Below, one piece after another: positions 2,108 through 52,192 of a stretch of DNA of 64,000 bases; within the stretch, counting starts at the first letter, position 1, and every line of letters starts with the position of its first letter. This DNA is from Kineococcus sp. NBC_00420. GTDB lineage: Bacteria; Actinomycetota; Actinomycetes; Actinomycetales; Kineococcaceae. The stretch is from assembly GCF_036021035.1 (NCBI RefSeq), contig NZ_CP107930.1, positions 3,720,001 through 3,784,000 of the forward strand, written 5' to 3'. Both the position numbers and the translations under genes were made by a program. The notes beneath the pieces were generated by a model. The model worked only from the letters and a program-made list of their open reading frames with translations, made no database searches and was not told the origin of the DNA.

Positions 2108-3196
2108 GTGGAGCTCACCTCGACGACGAACGCCGCCCCCGACCGCGCCACGTGGGCGGCGGAGCACTTCGACGACTGGTACGACGTCCTGGCCGCGGCC
2201 GAGGCGCAGGACCGCCCCGATCCCTCGACCTGGCGGCGCGGTGAGCTCCGGGCCGAGCTGGAGCGGGGGAGCACGGAGGAGGAGGTCCACCTCGTGCTGG
2301 CCCGCGAGGGCGGTGTCCCCGTCGGCGTCGCCGAGGTGCGCTTCACCCTGCTGGACAACACCCGCACCGCCTGGGTCCAGGTCGGCGTCGTGGCGGACCA
2401 GCGGCGACGCGGGGTCGGTACCGCGCTGCTGGAGCACGCCCTCGATCTCGCCGAGGCCGCCGGCCGCAGCACGGTGCGGATCTCCGTCGACCGTCCGGTG
2501 ACCCACCCCGAGGAAACCTGGCCGGGGTCACGCGCCGCGCGGGCCTGGGGTTTCACCCGCGGTCAGCTCGAAGCCCGTCGCCAGCTCCCGCTGCCGGTGC
2601 CGCCGGAGCGACTGGTGGCGTTGGCGGCCGCGGCCCGTCCGCACGCGTCGGGGTACCGGTTGCGCAGCTTCGCCGGCTGGGTTCCCGAGGCGGACCTCGA
2701 CGTGATGGCCGCCCTCACCGCGCGGATGAGCACCGACGCCCCGATGGGCGACCTCGAGGTCGAACCCGAGGTGTGGGACGGTGACCGGATCCGCGAGGTC
2801 GAGGCCGCCCGGGCGGCGCAGGGCCGGCACCAGTGGGTGGCGGTGGCCGAGGACCCGGGCGGTGCGGCCGTCGGCTACAGCGTCCTGGTGCGCTCCGACC
2901 ACGAACCGGAGCGGCTCATCCAGCTGGACACCCTGGTGCTGCGCGAACACCGCGGACACCGGCTGGGGATGCTGCTGAAACTCGAGTGCCTGCGCACCGC
3001 CGTGGTGGACAATCCTGTCGCGCAACGGGTCTCGACGTGGAACGCGGTGTCGAACACGCCGATGATCGCGGTCAACGAGCAGCTCGGTTTCGTCCTCGAC
3101 GAACTGATCGAGGAACTCGAGGCGCCCGTGGCCGAGATCCGTCACACCCTGCGGGATCACACCCTGCGGGATCAGACTTTGCGCAACCGCACCTGA
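2108..3196 (+). CDS. tandem-domain GNAT N-acetyltransferase
   Basis: Predicted acyl-CoA-dependent acetyltransferase with unknown substrate. The 362-residue product has two GNAT folds. The first has its acetyl-CoA loop at [11 protein letters not shown] (about residues 98-108) and the second at [12 protein letters not shown] (about 280-291), followed by the typical Asn-rich strand before ENEQLGF-like sequence. Other tandem GNAT proteins such as mycothiol synthase are possible relatives, but I see no MshD-specific signature. The last residues are a short repeat ([15 protein letters not shown]) made by a 15-bp tandem duplication. The end overlaps the convergent coaA gene by 25 bases. Confidence 0.85.
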
Positions 3197-21604: not shown

Positions 21605-23245
<1,641 letters not shown>

Positions 23246-23347: not shown

Positions 23348-23650
23348 TCAGCTGGCGATGCGCAGTCCGCGACGACGTTCGGTCGCGTAGACGGCTTCGC
23401 GGTCGTCCTCGGTGAGGCCACCCCACACGCCGTAGGGCTCACGGACCTTCAGGGCGTGCTTACGGCACATCTCCAGGACGGGGCAGCCACCGCACACGGC
23501 CTGGGCCGCAGCGTCGCGGTTGCGGCGGGCCGGGCCACGCTCACCCTCGGGGTGGAAGAACAGGTTCGGGTCGGCCTCGCGGCAGGCTCCGTCGAGCTGC
23601 CACTCCCAGACGTCGGCGACGGGTCCGGGGAGGCGGGAGATCTCGGCCAT
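23348..23650 (-). CDS. whiB3: WhiB-family iron-sulfur regulator, WhiB3/WhiD type
   Basis: Redox-sensing transcription factor that binds a [4Fe-4S] cluster and works with the principal sigma factor. The 100-residue product has cysteines at 23, 53, 56 and 62 (C-x29-CxxC-x5-C) and the GVWGG turn at 74-78. LPGPVADVWEWQLDGACR and FFHPEGERG closely match the WhiB3/WhiD subgroup. The position next to groEL1 and bldM repeats the Mycobacterium whiB3 and Streptomyces whiD loci. ATG 23650 follows an AGGAG; longer starts are less likely. It is divergent from a MerR gene over a region with TGAACAA repeats. Confidence 0.93.
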   Translation of the reverse strand: MAEISRLPGPVADVWEWQLDGACREADPNLFFHPEGERGPARRNRDAAAQAVCGGCPVLEMCRKHALKVREPYGVWGGLTEDDREAVYATERRRGLRIAS

Positions 23651-23713
23651 GGTGCGCTCCTGGTTCGGGAGGGATCTTGCTGACTGGTCATGAACGTACA
23701 ACCGCGTCAGAAG

Positions 23714-23860
23714 TTGTTCAAGCCCCTGGTCGGAACTTGTTCAACCAATCTGCCCGTGCGGGGGCGACCGGGACGTGGCGCGGGGGTGAACAACCTCTGC
23801 CCAACACGCTGAACAAGGTGCAGATCCCTGGTGCCTCCGCCACCCGAACGCTCTGAACAA
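23714..23860. promoter_or_regulatory. five TGAACAA repeats between whiB3 and merR gene
   Basis: Two copies face whiB3 (TTGTTCA on the plus strand at 23714-23720 and 23737-23743). Three face the MerR gene (TGAACAA at 23787-23793, 23810-23816 and 23854-23860). The two pairs have the same 23-base period. Near-matches TGGACAA and TGACCAA continue to 23880. Such an AT-rich 7-mer is rare in this DNA, so a binding array for one regulator of both genes is likely. Confidence 0.7.
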
Positions 23861-23924
23861 GGCTGGACAACCCTGACCAATGGCGCGAGTGGCGGGCGGC
23901 CCCCGACGTTGGGACACTGCAGCC

Positions 23925-24959
23925 ATGTCCCCCGCCGCACCCTCCCAGGGAGCTGCCGTGCCTCCGGCCCCGCGCATGACGTTGACGGTGGCCGCCGTCG
24001 CGCGCCGCCTCGGGGTGGCCCCGGCCACGCTGCGGACCTGGGACCGGCGGTACGGCCTCGGCCCCTCCGAGCACACCGCGGGCGCGCACCGCCGCTACTC
24101 CTCCTCCGACCTGGCCCGCCTCGTCGTGATGCGCCGGCTGACCCTGGAGGGCGTCGCGCCGTCCGAGGCGGCGCAGCTGGCCGCGACCACCGCCGTCGCC
24201 GACGGGGGTTTCGCGCTGGCGAGCGTCTCGACGATCCCGGCGGCGGTCATCGAGGCCGCCGTGACCGACGCGGTGGCCATCGCCGGCCCCGGTTCCGGGC
24301 TCGACCCGGCCCGCGAGGTCACCACGGCGGAGGAGGCGCCCGCGCTCTCCGGGCCCGACGAGTCCGAGGACGCCGAGAGCCTGCCCGGGCACCACGGACG
24401 ACCCACCGACGCCGTGGACTGGGCCGTCAGCAGCCTCGCCGACCGCTTCGCCGAGGAGATCCGCACCCGGGGGGTCGCGCCGGCCTGGGACGCCGTCCTG
24501 CGTCCCGCGCTCGCCACCCGCGACGCGGCCATGCACGCGGCCGTCGCCCGGGCGCTGGCCGCGCTGCCCGTCGCGACCGGGGACCGCGCGGTCCTGCTGG
24601 CCGCGCTGCACGACCCGGCCGCCCAGGTGGCCCGCGGTCCCGTGCTGCTCGCCGCGGCCGCCGCCCTGGCCGAGGCCGGCTCCGGTGCGCGCAGCGTGGG
24701 GGAGGGGGTCCCCGTGCGGATGCTCGCCGCCGCGGTGCGTCGGGTGCGCCCGCCCGCCCTCCTCCTGCACACCGACGCCGAACCCGCCGCCGACGTCGTC
24801 GAGGACCTGCTGGCCCTGGCCCGGGTCCGTCCCGCGCCGCTGGTCGTCCTCCTGGGGGACGGGTGGACGCCGGCGCTCAAGGACCGGCTGCGCGGCGCCG
24901 AGGTGGCCACGGGGCTCGCCGACGCCGTCGCGAGGTGCGTCGGGGCCTCGACCGCCTGA
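23925..24959 (+). CDS. MerR-family transcription regulator
   Basis: A 344-residue regulator. The N-terminal MerR helix-turn-helix spans about residues 19-85 (VAAVARRLGVAPATLRTWDRRYGLGP, AGAHRRYSSSDLARL). The long C-terminal part (about 160-344) has the size and helix-rich character of B12-binding-type sensor domains of LitR/CarH proteins, but I do not see a clear cobalamin-binding DxHxxG motif. Start choice: ATG 23925 is used; ATG 23880 would add 15 residues that overlap the repeat region. The adjacent repeat array suggests it regulates itself and whiB3. Confidence 0.85.
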   Translation: MSPAAPSQGAAVPPAPRMTLTVAAVARRLGVAPATLRTWDRRYGLGPSEHTAGAHRRYSSSDLARLVVMRRLTLEGVAPSEAAQLAATTAVADGGFALASVSTIPAAVIEAAVTDAVAIAGPGSGLDPAREVTTAEEAPALSGPDESEDAESLPGHHGRPTDAVDWAVSSLADRFAEEIRTRGVAPAWDAVLRPALATRDAAMHAAVARALAALPVATGDRAVLLAALHDPAAQVARGPVLLAAAAALAEAGSGARSVGEGVPVRMLAAAVRRVRPPALLLHTDAEPAADVVEDLLALARVRPAPLVVLLGDGWTPALKDRLRGAEVATGLADAVARCVGASTA

Positions 24960-36771: not shown

Positions 36772-38414
<1,643 letters not shown>

Positions 38415-50149: not shown

Positions 50150-52192
50150 CTACTTCCCCAGGGTGCTCGCCAGGGTCCTGGCGAACGTCGCGCCGGGACG
50201 CCCGAGACCCGTCACGGGGTCCCAGCCCTTCGCGAGTCCGAGGGTGGAGTCCCGGCCCCAGGTGCGGACGGTGTACGACGTCCCGCCGCTGGGGTCCAGT
50301 CCGTTGACGTAGTTCGCGCGGACCACGCCCTTGACCGTGGAGGCCTGGACGTCGGTGTAGGCGCCGCGGGCGATCGAGTACAACGCGGGGTTCGCGAGTC
50401 CGGCCCGCTTGCCCTTGCGCTGCACGGCTTCCGCGATGGCGCCCGCCGCCAGCGGCGAGGCCAGGCTCGTCCCGCCGATGCGGTACTCGCCGTAGCGGAC
50501 CCCGTCCGGGAAGGTCTGGGTCTGGCCCACGAGCATCCCCGTCTGCGGGTCCGCGACGCTGGCGATGTCCGGCACGGCGCGCCCGGTGGGGGCCGTGTTC
50601 GGCACGGTGCCCGCCTGCCAGGCGGGCCGCGGGAAGAGGGTGGAGTACCCGCCGCCGGCGCCGTAGAGGAACCCGCCGTCGACCCAGTCGGTGCCCTTGT
50701 CGTTCAGGGCGTAGACGCCGGTTCCCCAGCCGGTCTCGGCGACGACGTTGCGCACGCCGTTGCCGAGGCCCGTCGAGGTCCCGCCGACGGAGGTGACGTA
50801 GGGGTCGCTGGTCGGGTAGTCGACCTGCTTGGTGCCGGTCGAGGCGATCTCGTCGCCGTTGTCACCGGAGCTGAAGAGGAACGTCTGTCCCTGCAACGCG
50901 CCCTGCAGGAAGATCTGCTCGTAGGCGAAGACGTCGTCCGCGCCGGTGTCGGTCTCCAGACCGCCCCAGGAGTTCGTGACGACGTCGGCGCGGTTCTCGT
51001 CCACGACGGCCGCGAGGGCGTCGATGAGCCCACCGGCGCAGTTCGAGGCCGCGTAGTAGCGGATGCGGGCCGCGGGACGCATGGCGTGCACGGCCTGCAC
51101 GTCGAGGGTCTGCTCACCCGTCCAGCCCGAGGCGTCGCACGCCTCCTGGTCGGTGAACTTCCCGGCGCTCCAGGTGGAGTACTGGTTGCGGGCGAGGGTG
51201 GGCCAGCCGTAGGCGCTGGAGTAGGTGTTCGTGTCCGCCACGATCGTCGAGGAGTTGTACGCGTCGACGACTCCGACGGTGACACCGCCACCGGAGGTTC
51301 CGGTGTCCCCGCCGAGCCCGTTGAACAACTGCGGGGCGGTGTACCCGCAGAGGGCGTAGGACGGCGTCTGCCCGTGGAAGGCGGGCAGGGGGGTCTTGTA
51401 GTCCGCCTGGTACTTCGCCAGGAGGCCGCCGTAGAACTGGCTGCACGGTCGGCCGACGACCGAGGCGGCCGGCGGTGCGACGACCGGCTGGGCGACCCCG
51501 GCGGCGGACGCGGCGGCCGCGGTGCGGTTCGCGGTGGTGTCCGCGGCCGTGGTGCCCCCGGTCTCGGCGATCCGCTGCGACGTCATGCGTTGCACGCTGG
51601 TGTCGAGGCCGCTGATGGTCATCACGTCGGCCGCCACGTCGGTCGGCAGCGACGCGGCGGTGGTGGGAGCCACGACGTCCGCGCCGTCGTGGGTGAAGGA
51701 GGCCAGCGTGACGCCGAAGGCCCGCTGGAGCTGTTGCCGGGTTCCGGTGGCAGCCACGTAGCGTCGGCTCGCCTCGACGGAGTCGACGTGCAGACCGGCG
51801 GAGGCCAGGTAGTTCGAGACCGTCGTGGCGGCGGCCTCGGTCGGGCCGAAGGCGGCGGCGTACTGCGCTCCGTCGAGGTAGTGCCCGTAGGTGGGGGAGC
51901 CGGGCGTTGAGACGCCGGCGACCGCGGCCTGCAGAGCGCTCAGCCCACCGCGCGGCGCGAGGTAGACGCGGACGGACTGCGGGGTGTCGACCGGGGCCGA
52001 ACGGAGGGCGAGGCGTGCGGCGGTACCGCTCGGCAGCCACCGCGGCAGCGTGCCCGCGATCGTCGTGGTCCGGGCCGGGGCGGCGTGGGCCGCACCGCCG
52101 GTCGCGACGAGGGCGGTGGCACCGACAGCGGCGGTGAGGAGCCTGAATGAGAGTCGTGCGGAAGAATGCTGGGAATTGCTTGAACGCGGCAT
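50150..52192 (-). CDS. secreted S53 (sedolisin) family peptidase
   Basis: Acid-type serine-carboxyl protease, 680 residues. Signal peptide about 1-38 (GGAAHA/AP). An N-terminal activation domain (about 45-200) contains the S53-type pro-kumamolisin sequence (PGSPTYGHYLDGAQYAAAFGP). The catalytic residues are E360 and D364 in GEQTLDVQ, oxyanion D444 in SSGDNG and S576 in GGTSLASP. The C-terminal Ca-site region (GWDPVTGLGRP) is present. Likely autoprocessed after secretion to digest extracellular protein. ATG 52192 follows GGAAAGG. Confidence 0.93.
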   Translation of the reverse strand: MPRSSNSQHSSARLSFRLLTAAVGATALVATGGAAHAAPARTTTIAGTLPRWLPSGTAARLALRSAPVDTPQSVRVYLAPRGGLSALQAAVAGVSTPGSPTYGHYLDGAQYAAAFGPTEAAATTVSNYLASAGLHVDSVEASRRYVAATGTRQQLQRAFGVTLASFTHDGADVVAPTTAASLPTDVAADVMTISGLDTSVQRMTSQRIAETGGTTAADTTANRTAAAASAAGVAQPVVAPPAASVVGRPCSQFYGGLLAKYQADYKTPLPAFHGQTPSYALCGYTAPQLFNGLGGDTGTSGGGVTVGVVDAYNSSTIVADTNTYSSAYGWPTLARNQYSTWSAGKFTDQEACDASGWTGEQTLDVQAVHAMRPAARIRYYAASNCAGGLIDALAAVVDENRADVVTNSWGGLETDTGADDVFAYEQIFLQGALQGQTFLFSSGDNGDEIASTGTKQVDYPTSDPYVTSVGGTSTGLGNGVRNVVAETGWGTGVYALNDKGTDWVDGGFLYGAGGGYSTLFPRPAWQAGTVPNTAPTGRAVPDIASVADPQTGMLVGQTQTFPDGVRYGEYRIGGTSLASPLAAGAIAEAVQRKGKRAGLANPALYSIARGAYTDVQASTVKGVVRANYVNGLDPSGGTSYTVRTWGRDSTLGLAKGWDPVTGLGRPGATFARTLASTLGK

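Follow-up and report, generated by a model that had tools for sequence, protein, structure and literature searches.

A mirror-image TGAACAA array upstream of a whiD/whiB3-type gene in Kineococcus as a candidate operator of a CarH-like MerR protein

The operators of CarH, a vitamin-B12 light sensor, are described as 11-bp direct repeats, nnnnTnnACAn, set three or four in tandem (PMC9304148). One repeat includes the −35 in Thermus, and in Bacillus there is overlap with either the −35 or the −10. Both CarA and CarH are repressors, and the CarH recognition motif is given as RxWERRY. LitR proteins fall, according to PMC9758184, into classes I–V, of which class V occurs mainly in Micrococcales, has no B12-binding domain and is of unknown function. 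BldC, a MerR-type protein of 68 residues with no effector domain, binds direct repeats with a 9-bp unit, AATTxxxx(C) (PMC5859096). Here, we describe an array of TGAACAA repeats in a 64,000-nucleotide stretch of Kineococcus sp. NBC_00420 (NZ_CP107930.1, positions 3,720,001 to 3,784,000; hereafter the window), which lies between a whiB gene of the WhiD/WhiB3 type and a divergently oriented merR gene, and which resembles a CarH-type operator placed on the whiB promoter.

The array holds five exact copies of TGAACAA in 147 bases, two on the minus strand pointing towards whiB (copy 1, 23714..23720; copy 2, 23737..23743) and three on the plus strand facing merR (copy 3, 23787..23793; copy 4, 23810..23816; copy 5, 23854..23860). 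The closest pair on each side is spaced by exactly 23 bp, copy 5 follows copy 4 by 44 bp, and 10 bp further on stands the near-match TGGACAA (23864..23870, plus), which still fits TnnACA, followed by the degenerate TGACCAA (23874..23880, plus), which does not. The first-pass annotation, made from the letters of the window, had reported these five copies, their opposed orientations and the shared 23-base period, all of which were borne out. It had also extended the series by near-matches to the first merR ATG; the two near-matches do advance in 10-bp steps to the ATG at 23880, but the likelier merR start lies at 23925. The window contains six exact TGAACAA words against 0.78 expected, a number reached in none of 100 shuffles, and the only one outside the array is at 51322. 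The word itself is common in this genome, as 209 copies in 5.43 Mb compare with 62 of the word read backwards; even so, when 209 sites were placed at random in 20,000 trials, the biggest cluster within 147 bp comprised three. Same-strand pairs 10–40 bp apart (start to start) are confined in the genome to the array locus (2 of 2), and the clustering is real and far beyond chance.

Copy 1 is part of a sigma-70-type whiB promoter, TTGAAC-17-TACGTT, whose −35 hexamer TTGAAC (23716..23721, minus), recognised by its spacing to TAnnnT, overlaps the repeat, and whose −10 hexamer TACGTT (23693..23698, minus), assigned by sequence and conservation, lies beyond a 17-bp spacer. It alone of the five copies has a TAnnnT 16–19 bp downstream. 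Around it we delimited a conserved 26-bp promoter/operator, CTTGAACAACTTCTGACGCGGTTGTA (23697..23722, minus), with the core read from copy 1 and a conserved TG 11 bp after the TG of TGAACA. When CTTGAACAACTTCTGACGCGGTTGTA was compared with the 400 bp upstream of whiB at 164 loci, 138 of them merR-adjacent and 26 merR-less, the element followed merR closely: 130 of the 138 merR-adjacent loci scored at least 16 of 26 (median 20.5), and none of the 26 merR-less loci reached 16 (median 13.5, maximum 15). The merR-less set includes loci that we take to be Streptomyces-like and two that are presumably Mycobacterium-like (L169, L170). Plain TGAACAA within the same 400 bp is a weaker mark, present at 90 of the 138 loci with merR. 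In the 130 elements, TAnnnT follows the −35 at 17 bp (88) or 18 bp (28), 116 in all, and among 73 non-redundant elements TTGA, CAA, TG, CG and TT stand out, the TG, CG and T positions of the spacer being nearly invariant. At loci L163–L165, TGCACA and TGAACA stand exactly 11 bp apart at the −35, and the conserved TG can therefore be a second direct half-site. The first-pass annotation had taken the array for the site of a regulator, with which this anatomy agrees; it had missed the coincidence of copy 1 with the whiB −35, the class-wide element and the kinship with CarH/LitR.

Among 59 relatives, a 19-base pattern drawn from the element, TTGAMCAANNTNTGNNNCG, never occurred more than once per genome; 23 had one match each, 22 of these matches lay at the whiB locus, and the backwards control matched twice in the same genomes. 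The match in genome G046 was taken as chance; no whiB or MerR gene was recognised in the 2.1 kb around it. In the window, a second weak match to the whiB operator pattern (37952-37973, minus, 3 mismatches) is probably chance.

A search for such arrays at whiB/merR pairs in related genomes, as the first-pass annotation had suggested, found one at all 11 loci of the genus set (this genome and 10 others), the minus-strand copies lying towards whiB and the plus-strand copies towards merR; the lack of conservation in close relatives that the annotation had named as grounds for rejection was not observed. Exact copies number three to six per locus; at the level of TGnACA, minus copies precede plus copies in 10 of the 11, the exception, L004, having one extra minus match farther downstream. 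Of the 11 genus genomes, 10 have tandem TGAACAA pairs (10–40 bp, start to start) at the array locus, and one has them elsewhere (G010:C51). The 23-bp partner of copy 1 is retained, as TGnACA, at 9 of 11 loci, and a 10-bp plus-strand TGnACA pair facing merR at all 11. The 11 loci together contain 35 same-strand TGnACA pairs 7–47 bp apart, practically none of which arise in shuffles, and these are spaced by 10 bp (11), 11 (3), 12 (2), 23 (15), 34 (1), 43 (1) and 44 (2); because the loci are related, the pairs are not independent. The spacings are near-multiples of 11 bp, the CarH repeat length, and those on the merR side vary between species (10, 11, 12, 23). The sister genus (L008) has exact copies, three in number, on the minus strand alone. 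In 91 regions from outside the genus, TGnACA is over-represented (104 vs 35.5), and its pairs show mixed spacings. The core operator on the whiB promoter appears to be widespread in the class, and the merR-facing arm and full mirror-image array would be an elaboration seen in this genus. Two uncultured actinobacteria (L036, L073) have, between whiB and merR, TGAACAA pairs on the plus strand with a spacing of exactly 11 bp.

The MerR protein is encoded at 23925..24959 (plus) and combines a CarH-like DNA-binding domain with predicted helical and Rossmann (B12-type) domains. It matches Pfam MerR_1 (E 1.9e-14), and the best sequence matches of its DNA-binding domain are CarH (5c8d/3whp) and CarA (2jml), at E 1.6e-7 to 4.5e-7; its winged helix carries RTWDRRY in place of RxWERRY, a change of E to D. 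In Foldseek comparisons of an AlphaFold (AF2) model with a predicted local distance difference test (pLDDT) score of 80.3, the best 12 rows were full-length CarH, led by Thermus CarH (E 1.7e-9). The C-terminal part of the model has the four-helix plus Rossmann B12-type fold; among the B12 domains with which it aligns, photocobilin ranks highest (Z 15.5), and the CarH cobalamin-binding domain reaches Z 13.9 (2.8 Å, 166 residues). By DNA-binding-domain sequence and predicted fold, the protein is a CarH homologue. We did not adopt AppA, photocobilin or methionine synthase as the identity of the C-terminal domain, as these are structural neighbours only; the SCHIC domain of Rhodobacter AppA, for example, has a similar B12-type fold (Z 14.0, 3.2 Å, 171 residues) in a different protein context. 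That domain binds haem instead of cobalamin.

The ligand site of the Kineococcus protein has diverged. A Pfam scan at E 1 found no B12 domain, and the Wx9EH motif and the axial His for adenosylcobalamin (AdoCbl) are missing, which sets it apart from CarH proper. Of 142 merR proteins found, two run off contigs (L011, L126), leaving 140, and 105 of these keep the Glu, His and axial His in the alignment columns, a proportion that is not a survey because the sample was gathered by similarity; L010 was too short to be included. In the genus, the EH pair is missing from all nine complete proteins and the axial His from all but L009, in which a His is aligned at that position. The kept or lost state changed at least five times on the protein tree, four changes being forced by well-supported branches, with gain and loss not told apart. 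Six of ten relatives scanned have at least one B12 domain at the cut-off (both in L014; one in L029, L013, L016, L017 and L019), and L008, L021, L022 and L025 have none; a Kineosporia orthologue with the residues kept (L031) gives a stronger CarH match (E 3e-14). The window protein, with its CarH-like DNA-binding domain and diverged C-terminus, may be a member of LitR class V.

From the anatomy, spacing, conservation, co-occurrence, homology and residue loss that these sequences display, we infer binding, oligomerisation, repression and signal as follows. The array would be the operator of the divergently encoded CarH/LitR-family MerR protein, every TGAACA being a TnnACA half-site that a single winged-helix domain reads, with oligomers filling one half-site after another along a single helix face, at intervals of about 11 bp. 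The first-pass annotation had already named the MerR protein as the probable regulator, and the CarH-like DNA-binding domain, the fit of TGAACA to TnnACA, the modulus of about 11 bp and the contrast of 130/138 with 0/26 argue for it; that the protein binds the array as CarH-like half-sites is, on this sequence evidence, quite probable. Because the first repeat includes the whiB −35, the protein, once bound, would be expected to keep RNA polymerase from the promoter and so to repress whiB, in the manner of CarH and CarA at their own promoters, an outcome that we consider likely, with somewhat less assurance than binding itself. The second set of repeats, oriented to merR, should give autoregulation. 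As most relatives keep the AdoCbl-binding residues, the ancestral signal was probably B12/light, and for a B12/light input in the relatives that still have these residues the case seems evenly balanced. With the residues lost, the protein in this genus would be constitutive, controlled by a partner protein, as CarA is, or responsive to another ligand; here, the operator would have grown into a mirror-image array while the chromophore site decayed. Our best reading is thus of a regulator that appears dedicated to whiD/whiB3 and to itself and that was, originally, B12-based.

Several observations weigh against this reading. The count of 130 against 0 depends on a core taken from Kineococcus and on a cut-off of 16 set after the scores had been seen, the loci without merR tend to be more distant, and 16 was also reached by six of the 164 shuffled sequences (shuffled median 13). 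Eight merR-adjacent loci score below 16; L113, L171 and L172 seem truly to be without the element, and the others look like diverged forms of it. Plain TGAACAA occurs at three of the 26 merR-less loci (L115, L142, L143), and in family f17 the score is much the same with merR (L113, 14) as without it (L115, 15). On a tree of WhiB proteins, the presence of merR switches a minimum of 11 times, and in a tree-corrected test with three well-supported independent pairs a mean of 2.7 of the 3 had the element going with merR (p 0.25), falling short of significance because the pairs are too few. In the element itself, most species retain the TG but not the ACA of the second repeat, 11 bp further along, and the spacer carries part of a dyad, AAC-N10-GTT, which 48 of 130 elements have in full. 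Reading the core backwards does not abolish the enrichment in the genus either: ACAnnT gives 35 vs 12.2, with eight pairs at 23 bp, since stretches longer than the core recur, and outside the genus TnnACA pairs are also found at 24–27, 30–32 and 36–38 bp. Full-length template modelling (TM) scores to the top 12 Foldseek rows are low (0.30–0.38 on the query), and the window protein reaches 45.2 bits, and five orthologues 67.7–85.3 bits, of the 400 at which NCBIfam sets its CarH equivalog NF052513. We put the low TM-scores down to a different arrangement or orientation of the two parts, which on the predicted model match domain by domain. The caveats on co-occurrence are eased by contrasts within families: in f36, L153 with merR scores 19 and L154–L157 without it 12–14; in f15, L014 and L029 with merR score 21 and 19 and L141 without it 12; and in f39, L120 with merR scores 22 and L127 without it 13. 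In the tree-corrected pairs, the element never went opposite to merR.

The alternative that survives best keeps the MerR protein and changes its mode, with a dimer acting in the classical manner on the inverted repeat AAC-N10-GTT in the whiB −35/−10 spacer and the other copies being secondary. The dyad centre does fall mid-spacer, and over the 73 non-redundant elements its AA and TT and the central TG are well conserved (1.4–1.8, 1.1–1.9 and 1.9–2.0 bits), but its outermost bases are poorly conserved (C 0.95, G 0.51 bits), and most elements have the dyad incomplete. MerR-activated promoters have spacers of 19–20 bp, unlike the 17–18 bp found at whiB, and the other array copies keep direct spacing of the 11-bp type, with two perfect direct half-sites at L163–L165. 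We therefore consider this mode improbable. Still less probable is that another regulator occupies the array, whether WhiB itself, BldC or the neighbouring BldM-type response regulator. WhiB family proteins act at −35 regions, and the response-regulator gene after merR resembles one beside whiD in Streptomyces-like loci; yet where whiB and the response regulator are kept and merR is absent (L141, L142, L158–L161), the element is absent too, with scores of 12–15. BldC of Streptomyces shares with the array's proposed regulator a MerR-type winged helix, a variable number of direct repeats and developmental genes as targets, but its 9-bp unit differs from TnnACA at an 11-bp modulus, and the window protein scores 22.7 bits against a cut-off of 77 for the NCBIfam BldC family NF033787. 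Least credible of all is that the element is merely a strong conserved sigma-70 promoter with the remaining TGAACAA as duplicates or bystanders, for although copy 1 is a −35 with TAnnnT at 17–18 bp in 116 of 130 loci, a bare promoter needs no near-invariant TG, CG and T in its spacer, the other four window copies lack TAnnnT and whiD promoters without merR lack the element. None of these, whether promoter conservation by itself, autoregulation by WhiB, BldC or the response regulator next door, was accepted as a sole explanation.

Returning to the CarH-like operator, the window array has in common with those of CarH (Thermus, Bacillus) and CarA/CarH (Myxococcus) the TnnACA direct repeats, the 11-bp modulus and a repeat on the −35, and in each case the regulator combines a MerR DNA-binding domain with a B12-type domain, the CarH/CarA operators being bound by theirs and the window array probably by its own. 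The differences are that CarH and CarA target carotenoid promoters and the window array whiD/whiB3; that the array is mirror-imaged and gapped (23 and 44 bp), strict 11-bp tandem neighbours being imperfect in it (spacings 23, 23, 44, 10); and that the window protein has lost its cobalamin ligands. By comparison with LitR class V, the window protein now has a proposed target promoter and operator. A CarH/LitR-type operator is known in kind; new here would be the target gene and the enlarged, genus-specific layout. The first-pass annotation knew of no described site like the array at whiB3/whiD, and we likewise found none in the literature searched; nor did that literature (including PMC4255298 and PMC11796333, and with poor coverage of subscription papers, one on LitR classes among them) yield a description of a CarH/LitR protein at whiB.

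If true, this reading would link the B12-type CarH/LitR sensors with the redox- and nitric oxide-sensing WhiB proteins, two families unlinked in the literature searched. It would give CarH-like proteins of actinobacteria, LitR class V with its unknown function among them, a target promoter and operator, and suggest how whiD/whiB3 transcription is controlled outside Streptomyces and Mycobacterium. It predicts one operator and one promoter per genome, with orthologues that retain the ligand residues responding to light or B12 and those without them not responding. A broader version, to which we give about equal weight for and against, is that across much of the Actinomycetes WhiD/WhiB3 is under a dedicated, single-target CarH-type B12 (green-light) repressor, and that Kineococcus and several other lineages lost the chromophore but kept the operator, here enlarged, turning a light switch over to another input.

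The loci behind these comparisons were gathered as follows. A merR search gave a match in 52 of 59 relatives, the weak ones among which we took for other MerR proteins; whiB gave no match at 1e-15 in 14 of the 25 relatives whose merR match was weak or missing. whiB is divergent at 103 of 110 merR loci, and also at L018, where it lies outside the search rule but is visible in the output. L111 and L112 were dropped as duplicates of L001 and L013. Six merR loci without a parsed whiB were also dropped (L037, L048, L086, L088, L103, L109); L109 has groEL instead of whiB, and L086 ends near the gene. At two of the six, from Actinomadura (L088, L103), a CarH-like MerR relative is divergent from what we take, from its motifs, to be a DNA photolyase gene, upstream of position 3001, which reads as a light-linked setting, as in light-response loci. 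Among genomes of the class, 66 of 118 had a whiD-type match and 50 of those 66 were examined. Six paralogues judged by sequence not to be whiD (L147–L152) were kept in the count of 26 merR-less loci and dropped from the tree test, which had 20.

Two groups of loci stand apart. L115 (genome G027) is a merR-less whiD-type gene with CTTGAACAAG upstream, and the same genome has a merR-like gene beside another whiB (L175), by which L115 could possibly be regulated in trans. L171, L172 and L175 are more diverged divergent whiB/MerR pairs with element scores of 13, 14 and 16 of 26 (L175 over 2 kb), and perhaps have a different operator.

The whiB gene of the window (23348..23650, minus) encodes 100 residues beginning MAEISRLPGP, a start conserved in relatives, and matches Pfam WhiB PF02467 (E 1.8e-24). 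A second whiD-type gene in this genome (L173, G000:C1:3152777-3153070), 66% identical, provides an internal control, as neither TGAACAA nor TGnACA was found in its 722 bp upstream. The merR reading frame is also open from the ATG at 23880; ATG 23925 is the likelier start because the other ten genus loci have ATG or GTG there and no Met at the equivalent of 23880. Just 5' of ATG 23925 (window 23880-23925), GAGTGGCG and TTGGGACACT have similar counterparts in several further members of the genus, and are possibly the merR promoter of a leaderless mRNA, in which case 23880 would be a false start. The open reading frame before whiB (21623-23245) is one that we take to be groEL. Downstream of merR lie a response regulator, identified by Pfam, and then a sigma factor scoring 246.5 bits against the NCBIfam ShbA cut-off of 209. 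This response regulator shares 67% identity with its counterpart divergent from whiD at four loci, L158–L161, which we assume from gene order to be Streptomyces-like, and 76% and 70% with those of L141 and L142; none of these six loci has merR beside whiB.
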